Assembly (NCBI GenBank): GCA_902787975.1
Contig: CADAIP010000004.1
Span: 62,001-126,000 of the forward strand
DNA length: 64,000 bases
Reading direction: 5' to 3'
Source: Oscillospiraceae bacterium
GTDB taxonomy: Bacteria; Bacillota; Clostridia; Saccharofermentanales; Saccharofermentanaceae
Part shown: positions 1 to 46,501 of the stretch, piece by piece
Numbering within the stretch: position 1 is the stretch's first letter
Layout: each line of letters opens with the position of its first letter
The notes under the pieces: model-generated
Told to the model about the DNA's origin: nothing
Databases searched by the model: none
The model's input: only the letters and a program-made list of their open reading frames with translations
Translations under genes and position numbers: made by a program

Positions 1-34
1 CGAGTATCATCGCAACGACTTCAGTTCTTGCCAT
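1..34 (-). CDS. glgC: Glucose-1-phosphate adenylyltransferase GlgC, 5' end only (cut by window edge)
   Basis: Only the first eleven codons lie in the window. On the minus strand an ATG at position 34 is preceded by GGAGG nine bases upstream and reads MARTEVVAMIL, which matches the usual start of bacterial ADP-glucose pyrophosphorylases, where the nucleotide-binding GGxGxRL loop follows. The enzyme makes ADP-glucose from glucose-1-phosphate and ATP, the committed step of glycogen synthesis. It follows glgB by 24 bases on the same strand, so the two are almost certainly one operon. The call rests on a short N-terminus plus context. Confidence 0.72.
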   Translation of the reverse strand, partial: MARTEVVAMIL

Positions 35-58: not shown

Positions 59-2143
59 TTATTTAATCTTCTTTGTTTTTGTTTCAGCCGTTTTTGAAGG
101 AGCAGCTTTTTTAGCCTCTGTCTTCTTTACGGTCTTCTTTGCAACTGGCTTTGCTGCCTTCTTTGCTTCAGGTTTAGCCGCCATTTTCTTTGCGGCGGGC
201 TTCTTCGCTGATGCTTTTGCAGCAGGCTTCTTTGCTGCTGTCTTCTTAGCCTTCTTCTTGACGGGATCTTTTACCTTCATGAAGTAGATACCGGCAAGCG
301 GCGGAAGATTGATCTTAACCTTGTAAGGCTTGCCGTTTAAAGGCTCATCGATAGCTTCGAAGCAGCCTTCCGCATCAGTTGCCGTAGGATATCCTGAACC
401 GCCGTGGCACATGTCGTCTGTATTGAAAACGATCTTATAGGTGCCCAATTCGTATACAGGCATCTCATATCCTTCAAGCGGCTGGGGAACCATGTTAAGG
501 GCAACATAGATATCGTTGCGCTTGGGATCAGGACATGATCTCTTATAAACGAATACGTTGTTCTTTGTATCATCTGCTGCGATCCATTCGAAGCCTGCCC
601 AGGTGTGGTCATCTTCCCACATCTGAGGATTCTCGATATAAAACTTATTAAGTTCGCTGTTGAAGTTCTGGAGCAGACGGTGTGATTCGTAATCTAACAG
701 GAACCATTCAAGCTGCTCATAGAAGCGCCACTCGATGAACTGGCCGAACTCAGCGCCCATGAAGTTGAGCTTTCCGCCCGGATGGCTGATCTGGTACATC
801 ATCATGGTTCTGAGAGATGCGAACTTTCTCCAGATATCACCCGGCATCTTATCGATAAGTGAATGCTTGCCGTGAACGACCTCATCATGTGAAAGGCTGA
901 GGATGTAATTCTCTGAGAATGCATACATCATCGAGAAACAGAACTCGTCGTGATGCCATGCTCTTGCATATGAATCAGTTGAGAAATAATCCAGAGTGTC
1001 ATGCATCCAGCCCATGTTCCACTTATGAGTGAAGCCAAGGCCTCCGAACTCAACAGGATGAGATACCTTCGGCCATGCCGTGGACTCTTCTGCGATGAGC
1101 ATTGCATGAGGATAGTTCTTGCGGATAGTGGAATTGAGCTTCTTGAAGAAATCGATCGCTTCAAGATTCTCATTGCCTCCGAACTTATTCGGAATGTACT
1201 GCTGTCTTCCGTAATCTCTGTAAAGCATTGAAGATACAGCATCTACACGGATACCGTCGAGATGGAACTCGTCGATCCAGAACACAGCGTTGGAGATCAG
1301 GAATGAGAGAACTTCATTCTTGGAATAATCGAAAACATAAGTGCCCCACTCCCTGTGCTCGCCGATCCTGGGATCAGAGTATTCATAGCAAGGCGTTCCA
1401 TCAAATCTGACGAGGCCTTCCATGTTCTTCGGGAAGTGAGCCGGAACCCAGTCAAGGATTACGGAAATGCCGTTCTGGTGAAGGACATCGACCATAAACT
1501 TGAAGTCTGCAGGAGTTCCGAATCTTGAAGTAACGGCATAGTAACCTGTTACCTGATAACCCCATGAATCATCGAGCGGGTGCTCTAAGATAGGCATGAG
1601 CTCAACATGCGTATAGTGCATCTTCTTGCAGTAATCAGCAAGATCGATAGCGAGCTCTCTATATGTGAAGAAATTGCCGTCGGGATGTCTTCTCCATGAA
1701 CCCAGATGGATCTCATAGATATTGATCGGCTTGGGTGCCAATGCATCCGTGCGGTTCTTTACGAATTCATCATCATTCCAGATGTAATCATCAGGATCGT
1801 AAATTATCGATGCATTGTTAGGTCTTGTCTCGAAATGTCTTGCAAAAGGATCGCCCTTCTCGTAGATCCTGTTGTCGGCACCGATTACCCTGTACTTATA
1901 TCTGTCCCACTGCTGTGCATCCGGAACCTTCTGTTCCCAGATACCAGTCTTACCAAGCATGAACATCTGACAGTCGTTGGGGTCCCAATCATTGAAATCA
2001 CCCATGACGCTGACCATTCTTGCATTAGGAGCCCAGACGCGGAATATAAAGCCCTTCCCGTTCTCATCCTCATAGGGATGAGCGCCGAGAAACTTATAGC
2101 TCATATAGTTCTCGCCCTTGTTAAATAAATAAGCGGCATCCAT
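59..2143 (-). CDS. glgB: 1,4-alpha-glucan branching enzyme GlgB with lysine-rich C-terminal tail
   Basis: 694-residue GH13 glycogen branching enzyme; it cuts alpha-1,4 glucan and reattaches the piece by alpha-1,6 linkage. An N-terminal CBM48-like domain (about residues 15-115, with GDFNDWDP) precedes the catalytic barrel. Expected catalytic residues are visible: nucleophile D301 in DGIRVDAV, acid/base E352 in IAEES, and D420 in SHDEVVHGK. The start at 2143 is chosen because GGGAGG lies eleven bases upstream and YLFNKGENYMSYKFLGAHP is the usual GlgB N-terminus; the frame stays open 22 codons further up, without a ribosome site. Oddly, the normal enzyme ends near residue 626 and is followed by about 68 residues of AAKKPAAK-like repeats, as in an H1-type histone tail. 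glgC follows directly. Confidence 0.95.
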   Translation of the reverse strand: MDAAYLFNKGENYMSYKFLGAHPYEDENGKGFIFRVWAPNARMVSVMGDFNDWDPNDCQMFMLGKTGIWEQKVPDAQQWDRYKYRVIGADNRIYEKGDPFARHFETRPNNASIIYDPDDYIWNDDEFVKNRTDALAPKPINIYEIHLGSWRRHPDGNFFTYRELAIDLADYCKKMHYTHVELMPILEHPLDDSWGYQVTGYYAVTSRFGTPADFKFMVDVLHQNGISVILDWVPAHFPKNMEGLVRFDGTPCYEYSDPRIGEHREWGTYVFDYSKNEVLSFLISNAVFWIDEFHLDGIRVDAVSSMLYRDYGRQQYIPNKFGGNENLEAIDFFKKLNSTIRKNYPHAMLIAEESTAWPKVSHPVEFGGLGFTHKWNMGWMHDTLDYFSTDSYARAWHHDEFCFSMMYAFSENYILSLSHDEVVHGKHSLIDKMPGDIWRKFASLRTMMMYQISHPGGKLNFMGAEFGQFIEWRFYEQLEWFLLDYESHRLLQNFNSELNKFYIENPQMWEDDHTWAGFEWIAADDTKNNVFVYKRSCPDPKRNDIYVALNMVPQPLEGYEMPVYELGTYKIVFNTDDMCHGGSGYPTATDAEGCFEAIDEPLNGKPYKVKINLPPLAGIYFMKVKDPVKKKAKKTAAKKPAAKASAKKPAAKKMAAKPEAKKAAKPVAKKTVKKTEAKKAAPSKTAETKTKKIK

Positions 2144-2233: not shown

Positions 2234-2262
2234 ATTATAAACTAAATTAGAGGATTTACCAA
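2234..2262 (-). promoter_or_regulatory. Sigma-70-type promoter of glgBC
   Basis: On the minus strand TTGGTA (2257-2262) and TATAAT (2234-2239) are separated by exactly 17 bases. The predicted start of transcription is near 2227, giving a leader of about 84 bases before the glgB ATG. Confidence 0.7.
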
Positions 2263-2316
2263 CCGAAAATACAAAAAAACTCATTTTTTCGACTTCGATT
2301 TTGTGCAAAATTACAT

Positions 2317-2340
2317 AAACCCGTACATTTAAGCGGGTTT
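2317..2340 (-). terminator. Weak hairpin terminator after the PBP-GGDEF gene
   Basis: AAACCCG (2317-2323) and CGGGTTT (2334-2340) are inverted around a ten-base loop. The stem overlaps the TAA stop of the diguanylate cyclase gene and is followed on the minus strand by a T-rich stretch. Short stem, so only a moderate call. Confidence 0.35.
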
Positions 2341-4279
2341 AACTGATCCTGTCACGACCTACCTTATGCTCTCTCTTCTCGGCATACATTGTCGAATCAG
2401 CTTCTTTAAGGCACTTCTCGAAAACCCTATGCAGATCTTCGCTCGGGGCAACTCCGGGGAACTCAATATAAGAGCCGGTACTTACGCACACTTTGTATTC
2501 CTTTTCGTCGAGCATGACTTTTCTTCCGATAACTTCCCTGACCTTCATCACAAAGCTTTCCGCTTTATCGGCCGTGTAATTTTTCGCAAGAACAACGAAT
2601 TCATCACCGCCTGATCGGGCGCAGACTTCATCACCGTTTGAAGCCTCGAGCATCGCATAAGCAATCGTCTTAAGGCCGTAGTCACCCTCATTGTGTCCGA
2701 ATCTGTCATTGATCGTCTTGAGATCATCCATGTCAAAGACGATTACCGCAAGACCAGTGGAATTCTTTATGCACTCCTCATAATACTCCTTGAAGAATTC
2801 TTCAAGGCCGCGGCGGTTATAAAGTTCTGTCAGCATATCCCTGTTATAGAGATATCCGAGTCTCGTTACCGACTGCTCGAGATCTATCTGAATACGCCTT
2901 GTCTCAAGGATAACGCCAAGATCTACAAACCAGGACTGGATAGCCTTCTGCTCGCGGTTGTCGATATCAGGATCTGCGATCAGATAACCCATGTAATACT
3001 GGAGATGGTGCAGCGCAAAGATATAGTAAGGCTTCGGATCTTCAAGCATGTCTTTGGGAAGGATATCCTTCTTCCTGAAATGCTGTACCGGAACATCGGT
3101 CTTACCGCCGTCCCTGAACCCTGCCACAACAGTCATATCTTCATCAGATTCTGAAAAATCATCATCCACAATACGCTTCTTATCCCAGCCCGGAGCCAGA
3201 CAGAGAAGCATATCCCTGAATCCGGTATCAGTTTTTGCATTATCACTTATAGCCTTGAAACATTCTTCAAGAGTATTGGCATCTGATACCGATATCATCA
3301 GATTCGTTGTTGACTGTGCGATAGCAGTGGCATTCTCGATCTTCTTAAGATAACTCTTCCGGAAGTCTTCAATAGAATCTACATTCTTTTCCTGACATCC
3401 GCATGACTGATTACATAAGAGATCTCCTTCGATCATGATATCTTCATTGAACTTCTCGCCTTCAATCATTCTAAGCATGGTAACGATAGCCTGATATCCC
3501 ATATCATAGAAAGACTGTCTGGCTGTAGTAAGCGAAGGGAAACCGTTTGTTGATTCTGCAACCGCATCGAACCCTGTGATGATCATATCTTCAGGAATCC
3601 TGATTCCTCTGCTCTTACAGGCATTAATAAGACCGATAGCCGAATAATCATTTACACAGACAACTGCATCAGGAAGTTTTTTGTCACGCTTGCTATAAGT
3701 GTCCAGGATATAGTCCAGGGCAGGTTCACCGCAGTCATACCACAACGTTCCGTAATAAACCTTTTCTTCATCGAAAGGAATGCCATGCTCTTCCAGCACC
3801 CTTTTATAAGACTCTAAACGGTCCTGCGAGAAACCGTGGTGAGGCTGCTGATCTCCTGCCAGATGGAAGATATCTCTGCATCCGTGATGCGTGATCACGT
3901 GCTCTACGACTTTGGCAAATGTATTCTTATCATCGCAACGTATATTAAAATGCTCTTCATCATTTCCGCCGATGCTGATTACCGGAATATCGTATTTGGA
4001 AAGGATTGTCTTCAAGTGTTCTTTCAGAATATCACTGAAATATGTTGTTATCTTAACAACACCGTCAAAGTCCTTAAGATCAGGGATATCAAAAGATACC
4101 TTGTCACCTTCATCGTACTTTGAGAACTCTTTGTAGTTTATACTGCTGTATGAGTCGCCGAAACTTGCAAAGAAGATCAGCTTTACTCCATGCTTCAAAG
4201 CAGCATCAATAAGTCCCTTCTGCATCATCCCGGACATTTGCTCGTAAACATGGGATGTAAATACGGCTATCTTCTTCAT
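2339..4279 (-). CDS. Diguanylate cyclase with LacI/periplasmic-binding-protein-like sensor domain
   Basis: 646-residue fusion. Residues 1 to about 300 resemble the sugar-binding core of LacI-family regulators (KKIAVFTSHVYEQMSGMMQKG; ISIGGNDEEHF; PDAVVCVNDYSAIGLINACKSRG; IITGFD) but lack any helix-turn-helix. A short Cys-rich stretch (CNQSCGCQ) and a linker lead to a GGDEF domain (about 490-646) with an intact SGGDEF motif near 555. There is no signal peptide, so the sensor should be cytoplasmic. Intact active-site residues predict c-di-GMP synthesis from GTP, possibly controlled by a sugar or related ligand. No RxxD inhibitory site is seen at the usual spacing. The start at 4279 has AAGGAG five bases upstream; the frame extends 21 codons further without one. 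It lies upstream of glgBC on the same strand, but glgB has its own promoter. Confidence 0.88.
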   Translation of the reverse strand: MKKIAVFTSHVYEQMSGMMQKGLIDAALKHGVKLIFFASFGDSYSSINYKEFSKYDEGDKVSFDIPDLKDFDGVVKITTYFSDILKEHLKTILSKYDIPVISIGGNDEEHFNIRCDDKNTFAKVVEHVITHHGCRDIFHLAGDQQPHHGFSQDRLESYKRVLEEHGIPFDEEKVYYGTLWYDCGEPALDYILDTYSKRDKKLPDAVVCVNDYSAIGLINACKSRGIRIPEDMIITGFDAVAESTNGFPSLTTARQSFYDMGYQAIVTMLRMIEGEKFNEDIMIEGDLLCNQSCGCQEKNVDSIEDFRKSYLKKIENATAIAQSTTNLMISVSDANTLEECFKAISDNAKTDTGFRDMLLCLAPGWDKKRIVDDDFSESDEDMTVVAGFRDGGKTDVPVQHFRKKDILPKDMLEDPKPYYIFALHHLQYYMGYLIADPDIDNREQKAIQSWFVDLGVILETRRIQIDLEQSVTRLGYLYNRDMLTELYNRRGLEEFFKEYYEECIKNSTGLAVIVFDMDDLKTINDRFGHNEGDYGLKTIAYAMLEASNGDEVCARSGGDEFVVLAKNYTADKAESFVMKVREVIGRKVMLDEKEYKVCVSTGSYIEFPGVAPSEDLHRVFEKCLKEADSTMYAEKREHKVGRDRIS

Positions 4280-4441
4280 AAAGCTCCTTAAGTTCTGTTT
4301 ATACACACTCTTAAAATTATTATATTCATCTGGCTTTTTCATTGGTTAACGTTATGTAAATTAACTTTAATGATTTTTCACTAACGTAATTAAGGAACTG
4401 CGTGTTATTCTATTCAGAGTAAAAACAGAAAGGCATAAACA

Positions 4442-4975
4442 ATGAAATACTTTGTTGCTTCAGATATTCACGGTGATTCATATTGGGCAGAGCGCGTGGT
4501 CAGCGCTTTTAAAGAAAGCAAAGCCGATAAGCTCGTCTTACTCGGAGACATTCTTTATCACGGTCCCAGGAACGATCTTCCCGCACACTACGAACCCAGG
4601 AAAGTAATTGAGATCTTAAACAATATTGCAGACAGGATCCTTGCCGTAAGAGGCAACTGCGATACCGAAGTAGACCAGATGGTATTAAAGTTTCCGATAC
4701 TTGCCGATTACATTTATCTCGTTGACGAAGGAACCGTATTCTTCGAAACTCACGGCCACATTTACAACCCGATGAACCTCCCCGCTGTCATGCCTGAAGA
4801 TGCCATTCTTCTTACAGGTCATACACATGTTGCAGGAGACTTCATATGGGAATACGAAGACGGCCGCAAGATCCGCTACATGAACCCGGGATCACCTTCA
4901 ATTCCCAAGGAAGATACGAAGCCTTCATACATAATCATCGAAAACGGCAAAGCAGAACTTATCCCGTTTAACTGA
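4442..4975 (+). CDS. yfcE: YfcE/MJ0936-type metallophosphodiesterase
   Basis: 177-residue calcineurin-like phosphoesterase. Metal-binding motifs of the family are all present: SDIHGD near the N-terminus, LLGDILYHG, VRGNCD, THGH and the paired GHTHVAG. Family members such as E. coli YfcE hydrolyse phosphodiesters in vitro; the true substrate is usually unknown. The ATG follows AGAAAGG by seven bases. The gene is divergent from the PBP-GGDEF gene, with a 162-base AT-rich region between them, and stands alone: the next gene is convergent across a shared terminator. A link with cyclic-dinucleotide turnover cannot be claimed, as this family is distinct from EAL and HD-GYP enzymes. Confidence 0.88.
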   Translation: MKYFVASDIHGDSYWAERVVSAFKESKADKLVLLGDILYHGPRNDLPAHYEPRKVIEILNNIADRILAVRGNCDTEVDQMVLKFPILADYIYLVDEGTVFFETHGHIYNPMNLPAVMPEDAILLTGHTHVAGDFIWEYEDGRKIRYMNPGSPSIPKEDTKPSYIIIENGKAELIPFN

Positions 4976-36796: not shown

Positions 36797-39259
36797 TCAG
36801 TCTCTGGGACTCTCCTCAGGTATAAACTCGTGATTATCAACGTTCTTATGTCTCTCGGCGATCGCTGCATCAGCAAGTTCGATGAGCTTCTGCTGTGAAT
36901 CTACCTTCTCCTTACCTCTGAGATCGAGCTTGTGGTATGAACCGTCAGGTGAAAGGAAATGAGCCCTGACTGTATCAGCCAGTTCTACATCAAGCACTTC
37001 CTTAACACGTGCACGGCAGTCCGGATCTTCGACCGGGAACAACAGCTCGACACGGCGGTTAAGGTTTCTGGGCATCCAGTCTGCAGATGCAAGATAGATA
37101 TCCTCATGACCTTCATTAAAGAAATAGAAGATTCTTGAATGCTCAAGGAAACGTCCGGTGATGGAGCGAACCGTGATGTTTTCGCTCATTCCGGGAATGC
37201 CGGCTCTTAAGCAGCAGATGCCTCTTACGATGAGATCGATCTTAACACCCGCATTTGATGCTGAATAAAGAGCCTTGATCACTGTCTCATCAACAAGCGA
37301 ATTGATCTTTGCGATGATGTGCGCAGGCTTTCCTGCCTTGGCATTAGCAGCTTCTCTTCTGATCCTAGCTATGAAATAATCTTTCATCCAGAGAGGTGCG
37401 GGAATAAGTCTTCTCCAGGACTGCGGGATTGAGAATCCCGAGAGCATGTTGAAGAATTCTGATGCGTCCTCACCGAAAGATTCGTTAGCCGTGAACAGAC
37501 CGAGATCGGTATAGATCTTGGCTGTTACATCATTGTAGTTACCTGTGGCAAGGTGCAGATATCTTCTGATGCCATCCTCTTCCTTGCGCACAACAAGGGT
37601 GATCTTACTGTGAGTCTTAAGACCTACAAGGCCATAGATTACATGGCATCCTGCATTCTCCAGTTTCTTTGCCCAGTTGATGTTGTTCTCTTCATCAAAT
37701 CTTGCCTTGAGCTCAACAAGTACCATTACCTGCTTACCGTTCTGCGCAGCTTCCAAAAGCGATGCGATGATAGGTGATCTGTCGGATACACGGTAAAGCG
37801 TCTGCTTGATCGCAAGAACATTGGGGTCTCTTGCGGCCTGCTTAACGAATTCAAGCACCGGTTCGAATGTCTCATAAGGATGGTGGACTATTCTGTCCTT
37901 CTCCCTGATCTGCTCGAAAATATCAAGCTCGCTGACAGGACCGTCAAATGAAGCAGCCTCAGCAGGATCGTGAGCCTTGTAGCAAAGTTCGGGGTGTTTG
38001 CCCTTGCAGGCTGAAGTCAGCTTTGAAAGGAATGTGAGGTCGATGGGGCCGTTAACACTGAAGATATCGGCTTCATCAACTTCAAGCTCATCTACGATGT
38101 AATGGAGAAGATCAGAATCAATGTCATCCTGGACTTCAAGCCTGATGATCTCACCGAATCTTCTTCGTCTTACCTGTGTCTCGATCTCTTTAAGAAGGTC
38201 TTCTGCCTCGTCCTCGTCAATATCAAGGTCAGCATTACGCATTACGCGGTAGAACGCAGTAGCCAGAACGGTCTGACCGTCAAAGAGCATATCGGTATTG
38301 GCTCTTATTATCTGCTCAACAGGAACGAAGATGTCTCCGTCTTCTGTAGGGATCTGGTAAAGTCTCTTAACGACCGTAGGGATCTGGACGGTCGCATACA
38401 TGTACTTATCTTCATCGTCGGACTTCTTTTTCTTATCGCTCTTAAGTCCGAAGGTTGCTCTCTCCTGAAGCTTTACGTTCTTAGGCTCGTTCTTGAGCAT
38501 TACGCACATGTTGAGCATGCGGTTGTAAATGAGCGGGAAAGGTCTTGAAGAGTCAACTGCCATTGGCGTAAGGATAGGATAAAGAACCGCCTTGAAATAA
38601 GAATCGGCAATTGCTTTGAGCTGATCGCTCAGTTCATCGTAGTTCTTAAGGAAGATCTTCTCCTGTGCGAGCGAAGGAACGAGGGATCTCGTATATGTCG
38701 AATACATGAGAGCCATTGTTCTTCTCGTCTTCTGATCGATCCTCTCGAGCTGTTCATCGATCGAGAATCCGGCGATGTCACGCTCTGCAAAATCGATACT
38801 CTGCATGTCTCTTAATGAAGCAACTCTGACGATATAGAATTCATCAAGGTTAGATGCGGTAATAGACAGGAAGTTCAGTCTTTCAAGAAGCGGATTCTTT
38901 GAATCTCTTGCCTCGTGAAGAATACGGTCATCGAATTCGAGCCAGGAAAGCTCACGGTTATAAAAACTGCCGTTACCGCTTAAGAAAGTAGCATTTTCTT
39001 CTGAATATCCGCTGTCTGTAACTTCAGGAGAAGCCACGAAAGAAGATGACTTCTTGGGAGCTGTCTTCCCCGCCGGAGTTTTCTTAGCAGCCGTCTTTTT
39101 AGCAGGAGCCTTCTTTGCTTCAGTCTTCTTAGCTGCCGTCTTTTTAGCAGCCGTATTCTTTGCAGCGGGCTTTTTAGCTGCTGCTTTCTTTACGGGTGTT
39201 CCCGCCTTACCTGTTGATGTATTTGCCTTGCGCGATGCTGCGCTCTTCTTAACTGCCAT
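36797..39259 (-). CDS. ppk1: Polyphosphate kinase 1 with lysine-rich N-terminal extension
   Basis: 820 residues. Ppk1 reversibly makes polyphosphate from ATP. The enzyme starts near residue 97 with FYNRELSWLEFDDRIL and has ITASNLDEFYIVRVA, the catalytic His regions GLKTHSKITLVVRKE and RFLEHSRIFYF, SADWMPRNLNRRVELLFPV and the C-terminal tail. Residues 1 to about 70 are an extra tail of Ala/Lys/Pro/Thr repeats (KKAAAKKPAAKNTAAKK, AKKTEAKKAPAKK) that normal Ppk1 lacks; it resembles the tail of GlgB and the protein at 45822. The ATG overlaps the ppx stop (TAATG), with GGAGGGAAGG upstream. Last gene of the leuC-leuD-leuB-ppx-ppk1 run. Confidence 0.96.
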   Translation of the reverse strand: MAVKKSAASRKANTSTGKAGTPVKKAAAKKPAAKNTAAKKTAAKKTEAKKAPAKKTAAKKTPAGKTAPKKSSSFVASPEVTDSGYSEENATFLSGNGSFYNRELSWLEFDDRILHEARDSKNPLLERLNFLSITASNLDEFYIVRVASLRDMQSIDFAERDIAGFSIDEQLERIDQKTRRTMALMYSTYTRSLVPSLAQEKIFLKNYDELSDQLKAIADSYFKAVLYPILTPMAVDSSRPFPLIYNRMLNMCVMLKNEPKNVKLQERATFGLKSDKKKKSDDEDKYMYATVQIPTVVKRLYQIPTEDGDIFVPVEQIIRANTDMLFDGQTVLATAFYRVMRNADLDIDEDEAEDLLKEIETQVRRRRFGEIIRLEVQDDIDSDLLHYIVDELEVDEADIFSVNGPIDLTFLSKLTSACKGKHPELCYKAHDPAEAASFDGPVSELDIFEQIREKDRIVHHPYETFEPVLEFVKQAARDPNVLAIKQTLYRVSDRSPIIASLLEAAQNGKQVMVLVELKARFDEENNINWAKKLENAGCHVIYGLVGLKTHSKITLVVRKEEDGIRRYLHLATGNYNDVTAKIYTDLGLFTANESFGEDASEFFNMLSGFSIPQSWRRLIPAPLWMKDYFIARIRREAANAKAGKPAHIIAKINSLVDETVIKALYSASNAGVKIDLIVRGICCLRAGIPGMSENITVRSITGRFLEHSRIFYFFNEGHEDIYLASADWMPRNLNRRVELLFPVEDPDCRARVKEVLDVELADTVRAHFLSPDGSYHKLDLRGKEKVDSQQKLIELADAAIAERHKNVDNHEFIPEESPRD

Positions 39260-45821: not shown

Positions 45822-46274
45822 TCAGAAGAGATCTACACCGTTACCGTCAACGTCGTAAGCCTTCTTCTCGTTAGCTACAACATAGATCTTGCCAGCCTTG
45901 GGAAGCTTCTTTGCGATAGCTGCAGCAGAGATTTCCTGACCATCGATCTGGAAGATGATCTCAGCCTTCTTTGCAGGAGCAGCAGCCTTCTTAGCAGGCT
46001 TCTTAGCAGCTGCCTTCTTAGCAGCGGGCTTCTTAGCAGCAGCCTTCTTTGCAGCAGGCTTCTTTGCCTCAGCCTTCTTAGCGTCTGCCTTAGGAGCAGC
46101 CTTCTTAGCAGCGGGCTTCTTAGCAGCCTTCTTTGCAGCAGGCTTCTTAGCAGCGGGTTTCTTAACAGCGGGCTTCTTTGCAGCAGCCTTAGCAGGCTCT
46201 GCCTTAGGAGCAGCTGCAGGTGCAGGTGTAGCAACAGGTGCTACTGCCTTAACGTCTTTCTTTTCTGTATCCAT
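45822..46274 (-). CDS. Histone H1-like Ala/Lys/Pro repeat protein with DUF6465-like C-terminus
   Basis: 150 residues. After an acidic start (MDTEKKDVKA) and a Pro/Ala stretch, residues about 27-103 are AAKKPAAKK-type repeats, almost free of other residues. Residues 104-150 form a small domain (IIFQIDGQEISAAAIAKKL ... KIYVVANEKKAYDVDG, ending VDLF) that I recognise as DUF6465-like, a domain of unknown function usually at the end of such tails. The repeats resemble eukaryotic H1 tails and Pseudomonas AlgP, so nucleic-acid or polyphosphate binding is likely but unproven here. A strong promoter (TTGACA-17-TAGATT) and GGAGG site suggest abundant expression. Start at 46274 chosen by that site. Confidence 0.85.
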   Translation of the reverse strand: MDTEKKDVKAVAPVATPAPAAAPKAEPAKAAAKKPAVKKPAAKKPAAKKAAKKPAAKKAAPKADAKKAEAKKPAAKKAAAKKPAAKKAAAKKPAKKAAAPAKKAEIIFQIDGQEISAAAIAKKLPKAGKIYVVANEKKAYDVDGNGVDLF

Positions 46275-46314
46275 TCTAAAAGAACCTCCGTATTTTCTTG
46301 TTTGGATATAAATA

Positions 46315-46343
46315 AATCTACATTTCTTTACATTTGGTGTCAA
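46315..46343 (-). promoter_or_regulatory. Consensus promoter of the Ala/Lys repeat protein gene
   Basis: Minus strand TTGACA (46338-46343), exact consensus, 17-base spacer, TAGATT (46315-46320). The leader is about 35 bases and contains GGAGG. Confidence 0.75.
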
Positions 46344-46501
46344 CAAACATTTTTTAGAATTTTGGCAAGTAATTCTTTTTGTTTGCAAGTTTGTATTTGT
46401 TCAACTTACACACAATAAAATAACCGCATTTCAGGTTCATATAACCACAATGTTTTCACAAATTTTCATTTTATCGGATAGAATTCATAAACCTGTTAAA
46501 T

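Follow-up and report, generated by a model that had tools for sequence, protein, structure and literature searches.

The gene that is the subject of this work lies at 2339..4279 (stop codon included) on the reverse strand of the window, which is the whole stretch of 64,000 nucleotides that was analysed, and its source is a rumen bacterium. It codes for a protein of 646 amino acids with a LacI-type core, a GAF-like domain, and a GGDEF domain and is referred to below as the cyclase gene. About 200 bp downstream and on the same strand starts glgB (59..2143, with its ATG at 2143), whose product, identified with NCBIfam GlgB, is a glycogen branching enzyme that ends in a Lys/Ala-rich tail. It is followed by the first bases of glgC (1..34, reverse strand, from the open reading frames and NCBIfam), which runs beyond the window. 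Past the window edge the order is glgC and then glgD, glgA, and a gene for a GH13 enzyme that is closest to cyclomaltodextrinase/neopullulanase. On the other side, upstream of the cyclase gene and divergent from it, is the gene of a YfcE-family phosphodiesterase (yfcE; 4442..4975, forward strand), which was assigned by NCBIfam and synteny and serves as a marker of the locus. With these positions of the glgB start codon and of glgC, which begins from base 34, the cyclase gene does lie directly upstream of glgBC on the same strand, as the original prediction had it. The longest open reading frame of the cyclase gene, from the first ATG, is 2339-4342 on the reverse strand. The tblastn matches of relatives mostly begin near residues 20-23 of this long form, and the ATG at 4279 is preceded by the -10-like element TATAAT (4319..4324, reverse strand) and by the ribosome-binding sequence AAGGAG at 4284-4289. 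When 20 upstream regions were aligned, both the TATAAT and this ATG proved to be conserved. The start at 4279 that had been predicted is therefore the right one.

The glycogen enzymes carry long Lys/Ala-rich tails that resemble histone H1, namely, at 62-270 for GlgB and at 7945-8200 of L021 for GlgA. Tails of more than 20 amino acids and 50% Lys plus Ala were found in 37 of 38 complete GlgB and in 14 of 18 complete GlgA. By reading, a similar N-terminal Lys/Ala stretch (39050-39259) is present in a polyphosphate-kinase-like open reading frame at 36797-39259, and a similar Lys/Ala-rich stretch is present in a small open reading frame at 45822-46388.

Residues 1-295 of the cyclase protein (3395..4279, reverse strand) form a LacI/CcpA-type ligand-binding core as judged by Pfam, hmmsearch, and fold matching. 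Pfam matched Peripla_BP_3 in the core with an E value of 2.6e-22, and hmmsearch with a profile of 44 relatives matched CcpA and ancestral LacI with E values of 1e-38 to 1e-40. The AlphaFold model of the core matched CcpA (2jcg) with Z 25.4 and rmsd 3.4 over 268 aligned residues, and Z was about 22-25 against the LacI/GalR-family regulators CcpA, PurR, and LacI. A Pfam scan found no HTH or other DNA-binding domain in the protein, which thus has the ligand core of a LacI/GalR transcription factor but not the N-terminal LacI HTH. In the AlphaFold model a coiled helix (residues 301-332) connects the core to the middle domain, residues 337-440 (2960..3271, reverse strand), which appears in the AlphaFold models and has no Pfam match. 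Pfam gave nothing credible between the core and the GGDEF domain, and Foldseek with the middle domain gave no match at E<=0.001, the best being a weak one at 4.6e-3. The top fold matches of this domain in VIA-align were GAF structures (3trc, Z 11.6, rmsd 3.5, 138 aligned), and it is called GAF-like here, an assignment made solely by predicted fold. The middle part is poorly conserved with a mean column identity of 36%. A long helix that is predicted to be a signalling helix (residues 444-479; 2843..2950, reverse strand) leads to the GGDEF domain (residues 481-646; 2342..2839, reverse strand; Pfam E 1.9e-27), in which the GGDEF motif at residues 557-561 (2597-2611, reverse strand) is intact. 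The mean pLDDT of the model is 89.5 for the whole protein and 84.6 for residues 296-482. The two ends of the protein had been read correctly in the original prediction, namely, a LacI-type core without a DNA-binding domain and an intact GGDEF domain. In 19-residue Kyte-Doolittle windows the mean peaks at 1.17, which is too low throughout for a membrane helix; the protein is predicted to be soluble and cytoplasmic.

The GGDEF motif and the surrounding catalytic positions are invariant in both a closer set of 20 and a wider set of 44 sequences. With an intact GG[DE]EF motif and intact neighbouring catalytic residues the protein can be classed, from its sequence, as a putative diguanylate cyclase. 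None of the 20 and none of the 44 sequences has the RxxD of the I-site five residues before the GGDEF motif, and NGDE stands in its position in the protein of the window, which is thus not of the PleD type that is inhibited through the I-site. In the core, all 44 of the 44 relatives have R154, N210, and D238, and an HMM alignment places these three on the corresponding R, N, and D of ancestral LacI. By LacI numbering we take these three to be sugar-pocket residues. Q255 does not vary among the closer sequences (20/20) and is present in 17 of the 44 sequences of the wider set. At the junction of core and helix there is an SCGC (residues 292-295; 3395..3406, reverse strand) of which Cys293 and Cys295 are invariant in 44 of 44. 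An SCxC is seen in five of the eight proteins of this genome that have a LacI core and a GGDEF domain.

Based on its sequence and its model, we consider it probable that the protein is a soluble, ligand-gated, cytoplasmic diguanylate cyclase and that it is one of several in the cell. In the cytoplasm, a small sugar- or nucleoside-like molecule would bind in the cleft of the LacI-type core, the resulting change would pass through the coiled helix, the GAF-like domain, and the signalling helix, and this signal would set the pairing of the GGDEF domains and hence the synthesis of c-di-GMP. Such synthesis would proceed without the classical product inhibition at the I-site. The ligand class, the gating, and the enzyme activity are the parts of this reading that we infer, and the ligand of the core could be other than a sugar or a nucleoside. 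That a cytoplasmic LacI-type sensor sits on a GGDEF domain, as had been proposed, agrees with the low hydropathy maximum and with the invariance of R154, N210, and D238. The gene is under purifying selection and is more than a chance open reading frame because dN/dS in three close pairs is 0.080, 0.082, and 0.135.

The genome has 42 GGDEF and 15 EAL matches. It has 10 Peripla_BP_3 matches and eight of these are LacI-core GGDEF proteins, namely, the cyclase and seven paralogues, one of the eight carrying an EAL domain and no intact GGDEF motif. By reading, the remaining two are a protein with a GntR-type HTH at its N-terminus and a lipoprotein-like binding protein. The LacI HTH (PF00356) had no match in this genome while the control matched in 9 of 14, and among 59 genomes of the genus it was found in 17 and never more than twice. 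It would seem from these counts that the LacI-type sensors here feed c-di-GMP rather than transcription. Since the LacI HTH is missing from the genome while eight of its proteins join a LacI core to GGDEF, the general role of the cyclase is most likely to convert the carbohydrate state of the cytoplasm into c-di-GMP. PilZ had no match in the genome while its control matched in 5 of 14. No match to c-di-GMP-I and -II riboswitches was obtained in the genome, and the absence of such riboswitches is not to be inferred from this because the controls matched nowhere either. In L126 (5472-9429) a LacI-core GGDEF paralogue is followed on its own strand, after 53 bp, by a GH31 glycosidase gene, and another paralogue is surrounded by what, by reading, are genes of sugar-polymer synthesis. 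The original prediction described the protein itself correctly and missed the GAF-like domain, the seven paralogues, and the separate promoter of glgB that is described next.

Upstream of the -10 element of the cyclase gene there is a conserved AATTTACATNNNGTTAA(C/T) block in the alignment (4344..4362, reverse strand) that may be an operator. Between the cyclase gene and glgB there is a conserved promoter-like TTGGTA-17-TATAAT (2234..2262, reverse strand) with its TATAAT at 2234-2239, and before this glgB promoter lies a block of 41 nt, GCACAAAA-N-TTTTTTGTATTTT, with a variable middle (2266..2306, reverse strand). The block is exactly 41 nt long at 19 of the 20 cyclase-linked loci, the exception being L054 where one base of the pattern is missing, and at 31 of 40 other glgB loci, and these 31 comprise every locus of the same genus within the 40. 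Of 24 listed loci, 14 have the exact GTATTTT string, and in each of these 14 the step from it to TATAAT measures 33 nt. Since the block is kept with or without the cyclase gene across the genus, it is a property of glgB and not of the cyclase gene. For the same reason co-transcription of the cyclase gene and glgB is unlikely, and the cyclase gene is probably transcribed separately from glgBCDA. A glg operon that includes the cyclase gene was therefore considered and set aside, given the gap of about 200 bp and a glgB promoter that is conserved also where the cyclase gene is absent. Any coupling of the cyclase to glg would then be left to the signal molecule. An intrinsic terminator was rejected as a general feature because the 41-nt block folds well (z <= -4) in 4 of 19 linked loci, the fold z in the window being -0.2. 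Because the block rarely folds well, it is better explained as a protein-binding element with fixed spacing, and it is possibly the site of an undescribed regulator. The one other GCACAAAA-N-TTTTTTG match of the genome lies ahead of what looks, by reading, like the gene of an EF-G-like factor. Rfam at gathering thresholds found nothing but a tRNA in the window and L021.

A cyclase homologue at E<=1e-70 was found in 66 of 115 genomes of the family in a search that scored the ten best candidates per genome. One close relative in the set bears the public label Ruminococcaceae bacterium RUG13376 and another that of Saccharofermentans sp. The surroundings of 71 homologue matches were fetched, many of the genomes being fragmented, and in 19 of these loci the cyclase gene lies directly upstream of glgB, which makes 20 with the window; the other 52 homologues have no glg linkage. 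The neighbours of these unlinked homologues are varied. A general carbohydrate neighbourhood for the homologues was rejected as many lie beside PPK2, aconitase, MoxR-type, subtilase, and beta-lactamase-fold genes in a neighbour scan of representatives of the commoner neighbour clusters. The glgB gene is present in 105 of the 115 genomes, and its upstream region was compared at the 20 linked and 40 other loci, that is, in 60 of the 105 glgB genomes. In the upstream open reading frames of these 40 loci no cyclase homologue was found at any of the 38 that could be judged, L230 and L248 being too short upstream. Seven of the 38 are inside the linked clade and 31 are outside it. Linkage to glg outside the linked clade was likewise set aside: among 80 genome-contig loci, of which 46 hold more than 15 kb, glgB is beside the cyclase gene in six, with cyclases that are 70-94% identical, and in a seventh there is no more than a distant glgA, at 44%.

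In a tree of glgB, glgC, and glgA from 39 genomes, in which some inner splits are weakly supported, the linked, absent, and separated cases form one clade of 27 genomes with a bootstrap of 100, and the 12 sampled outsiders have no cyclase gene. The clade has 20 linked genomes, six in which yfcE lies directly before glgB and the cyclase gene is cleanly absent (G071, G028, G064, G034, G019, and G020), and one, G008, in which the yfcE side is kept and glgB is about 28 kb off on the same contig. One gain of the cyclase gene between yfcE and glgB and two or three losses would suffice to produce this distribution. In a tree of 69 cyclase proteins, made without the incomplete rows L065, L120, and L121, 2 label changes account for the linked rows as compared with 16.8 for shuffled labels, and G008 is the only row among them without the label. 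Where the two were compared between the same genomes, the cyclases are about 71% identical and GlgB is 97% identical; the cyclase is by far the faster-evolving of the two. The cyclases of L059 and L060 are nearly identical in the protein tree and their genomes are apart in the glg tree; a horizontal exchange of the cyclase gene between the two is possible. Among the relatives compared, the glg neighbourhood is kept in 20 of 27 genomes of one clade, is absent or broken in the other seven, and does not appear at the 31 judged loci outside it.

These results raise the question of what the adjacency to glgB means. One explanation, to which we give about an even chance, is that the cyclase gene landed by chance between yfcE and glgB and that the adjacency is vertical inheritance with no functional tie. 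A single gain explains the pattern, adjacency to yfcE is kept about as well as adjacency to glgB, the clean losses leave the glgB promoter unchanged, and with so many GGDEF matches in the genome (42) some interesting neighbour is likely. On the other hand, of the 21 genomes with this copy 20 still have the adjacency, while frequent change is seen among the genes that separate porG from yfcE, and the paralogues near the GH31 gene and the sugar-polymer-like genes hint at a carbohydrate theme. If there is a functional tie, the cyclase may be a dedicated regulator of glycogen whose core reads a glycogen-related metabolite and whose c-di-GMP has a local effect, either on the expression of glg or on one of the Glg enzymes. 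Such a dedicated role is plausible, as the adjacency is kept in most of the clade though the cyclase diverges to 56% identity, and there are precedents in Streptomyces GlgX, in cyanobacterial c-di-AMP with SbtB and GlgB, and in a c-di-GMP null mutant of Erwinia, as far as the excerpts of those reports go. Nevertheless, we hold this reading to be rather doubtful because of the six clean absences and one separation, the persistence of glgBCDA and of the promoter block without the cyclase gene, the separate promoters, the homologues at many other loci, and the lack of a PilZ match in the genome. Of the original proposal that a sugar signal is turned into c-di-GMP to tune glycogen synthesis, the step from sugar to c-di-GMP is the one that best accounts for the anatomy, whereas the glycogen part draws on an adjacency that is limited to one clade.

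The LacI core could instead serve for dimerisation with the input coming from the GAF-like domain or, through redox or a metal, from the invariant CxC. The presence of a GAF-like domain and the invariance of Cys293 and Cys295 would agree with this, but the middle part is poorly conserved while R154, N210, and D238 in the core do not vary, and we regard it as improbable. A bolder proposal, for which we see little likelihood, is that the LacI sensors of the genus moved almost wholesale to c-di-GMP and that the glg-linked copy reads a glycogen-derived sugar, its c-di-GMP balancing storage against use by way of a new kind of receptor other than PilZ, for example one of the Glg enzymes. The ligand-gated cytoplasmic cyclase is the preferred reading. 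It offers a constrained class of candidate ligands and a fixed neighbourhood, and the presence and absence of its gene in close relatives provide a natural comparison.

Compared with the LacI/GalR regulators CcpA, PurR, and LacI, the cyclase has the same ligand core and, presumably, the same sugar-pocket residues in alignment, but it has no HTH and its output is a GGDEF domain. The counts in this genome, with eight proteins of this build and not one LacI HTH, suggest that carbohydrate sensing in these rumen bacteria may run via a second messenger. A literature search by title and abstract found no paper on a LacI-core GGDEF protein beside glg genes. In Streptomyces, c-di-GMP activates GlgX, which acts on glycogen breakdown (PMC9530166), so that c-di-GMP meets glycogen metabolism there as is proposed here but at the breakdown step. 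According to the excerpted text of that paper, the c-di-GMP-binding residues of GlgX are conserved among Streptomyces and are lacking in three other debranching enzymes. Therefore the GlgX precedent, on which the original prediction drew, is not directly transferable. As far as the GH13 enzyme of the glg cluster goes, an explanation of the GlgX type is also not favoured, since that enzyme is nearest to cyclomaltodextrinase/neopullulanase. In cyanobacteria a second messenger is likewise tied to GlgB, but the nucleotide is c-di-AMP and it acts via the carrier SbtB, as far as the excerpt of PMC10117731 goes. In Erwinia amylovora, glgB, glgX, and glgC are among the top positive expression changes in a c-di-GMP null mutant (PMC9371280); this is a transcript effect in a proteobacterium, and the excerpt of that report does not mention a sugar-sensing cyclase beside glg. 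There is a likeness also to the PBP-clan domains in a review of c-di-GMP (PMC8846402), the excerpt of which states that a Peripla_BP domain of the LacI type may bind sugars and lists it among the domains without validated roles. A Peripla_BP domain of the LacI type and a c-di-GMP output are common to both, but the domains of the review are described as periplasmic whereas the cyclase described here is predicted to be cytoplasmic and has a GAF-like domain and glg neighbours. As a soluble and well-modelled LacI-core GGDEF protein, it would let the role of this sensor domain, the gap pointed out in that part of the review, be tested directly.
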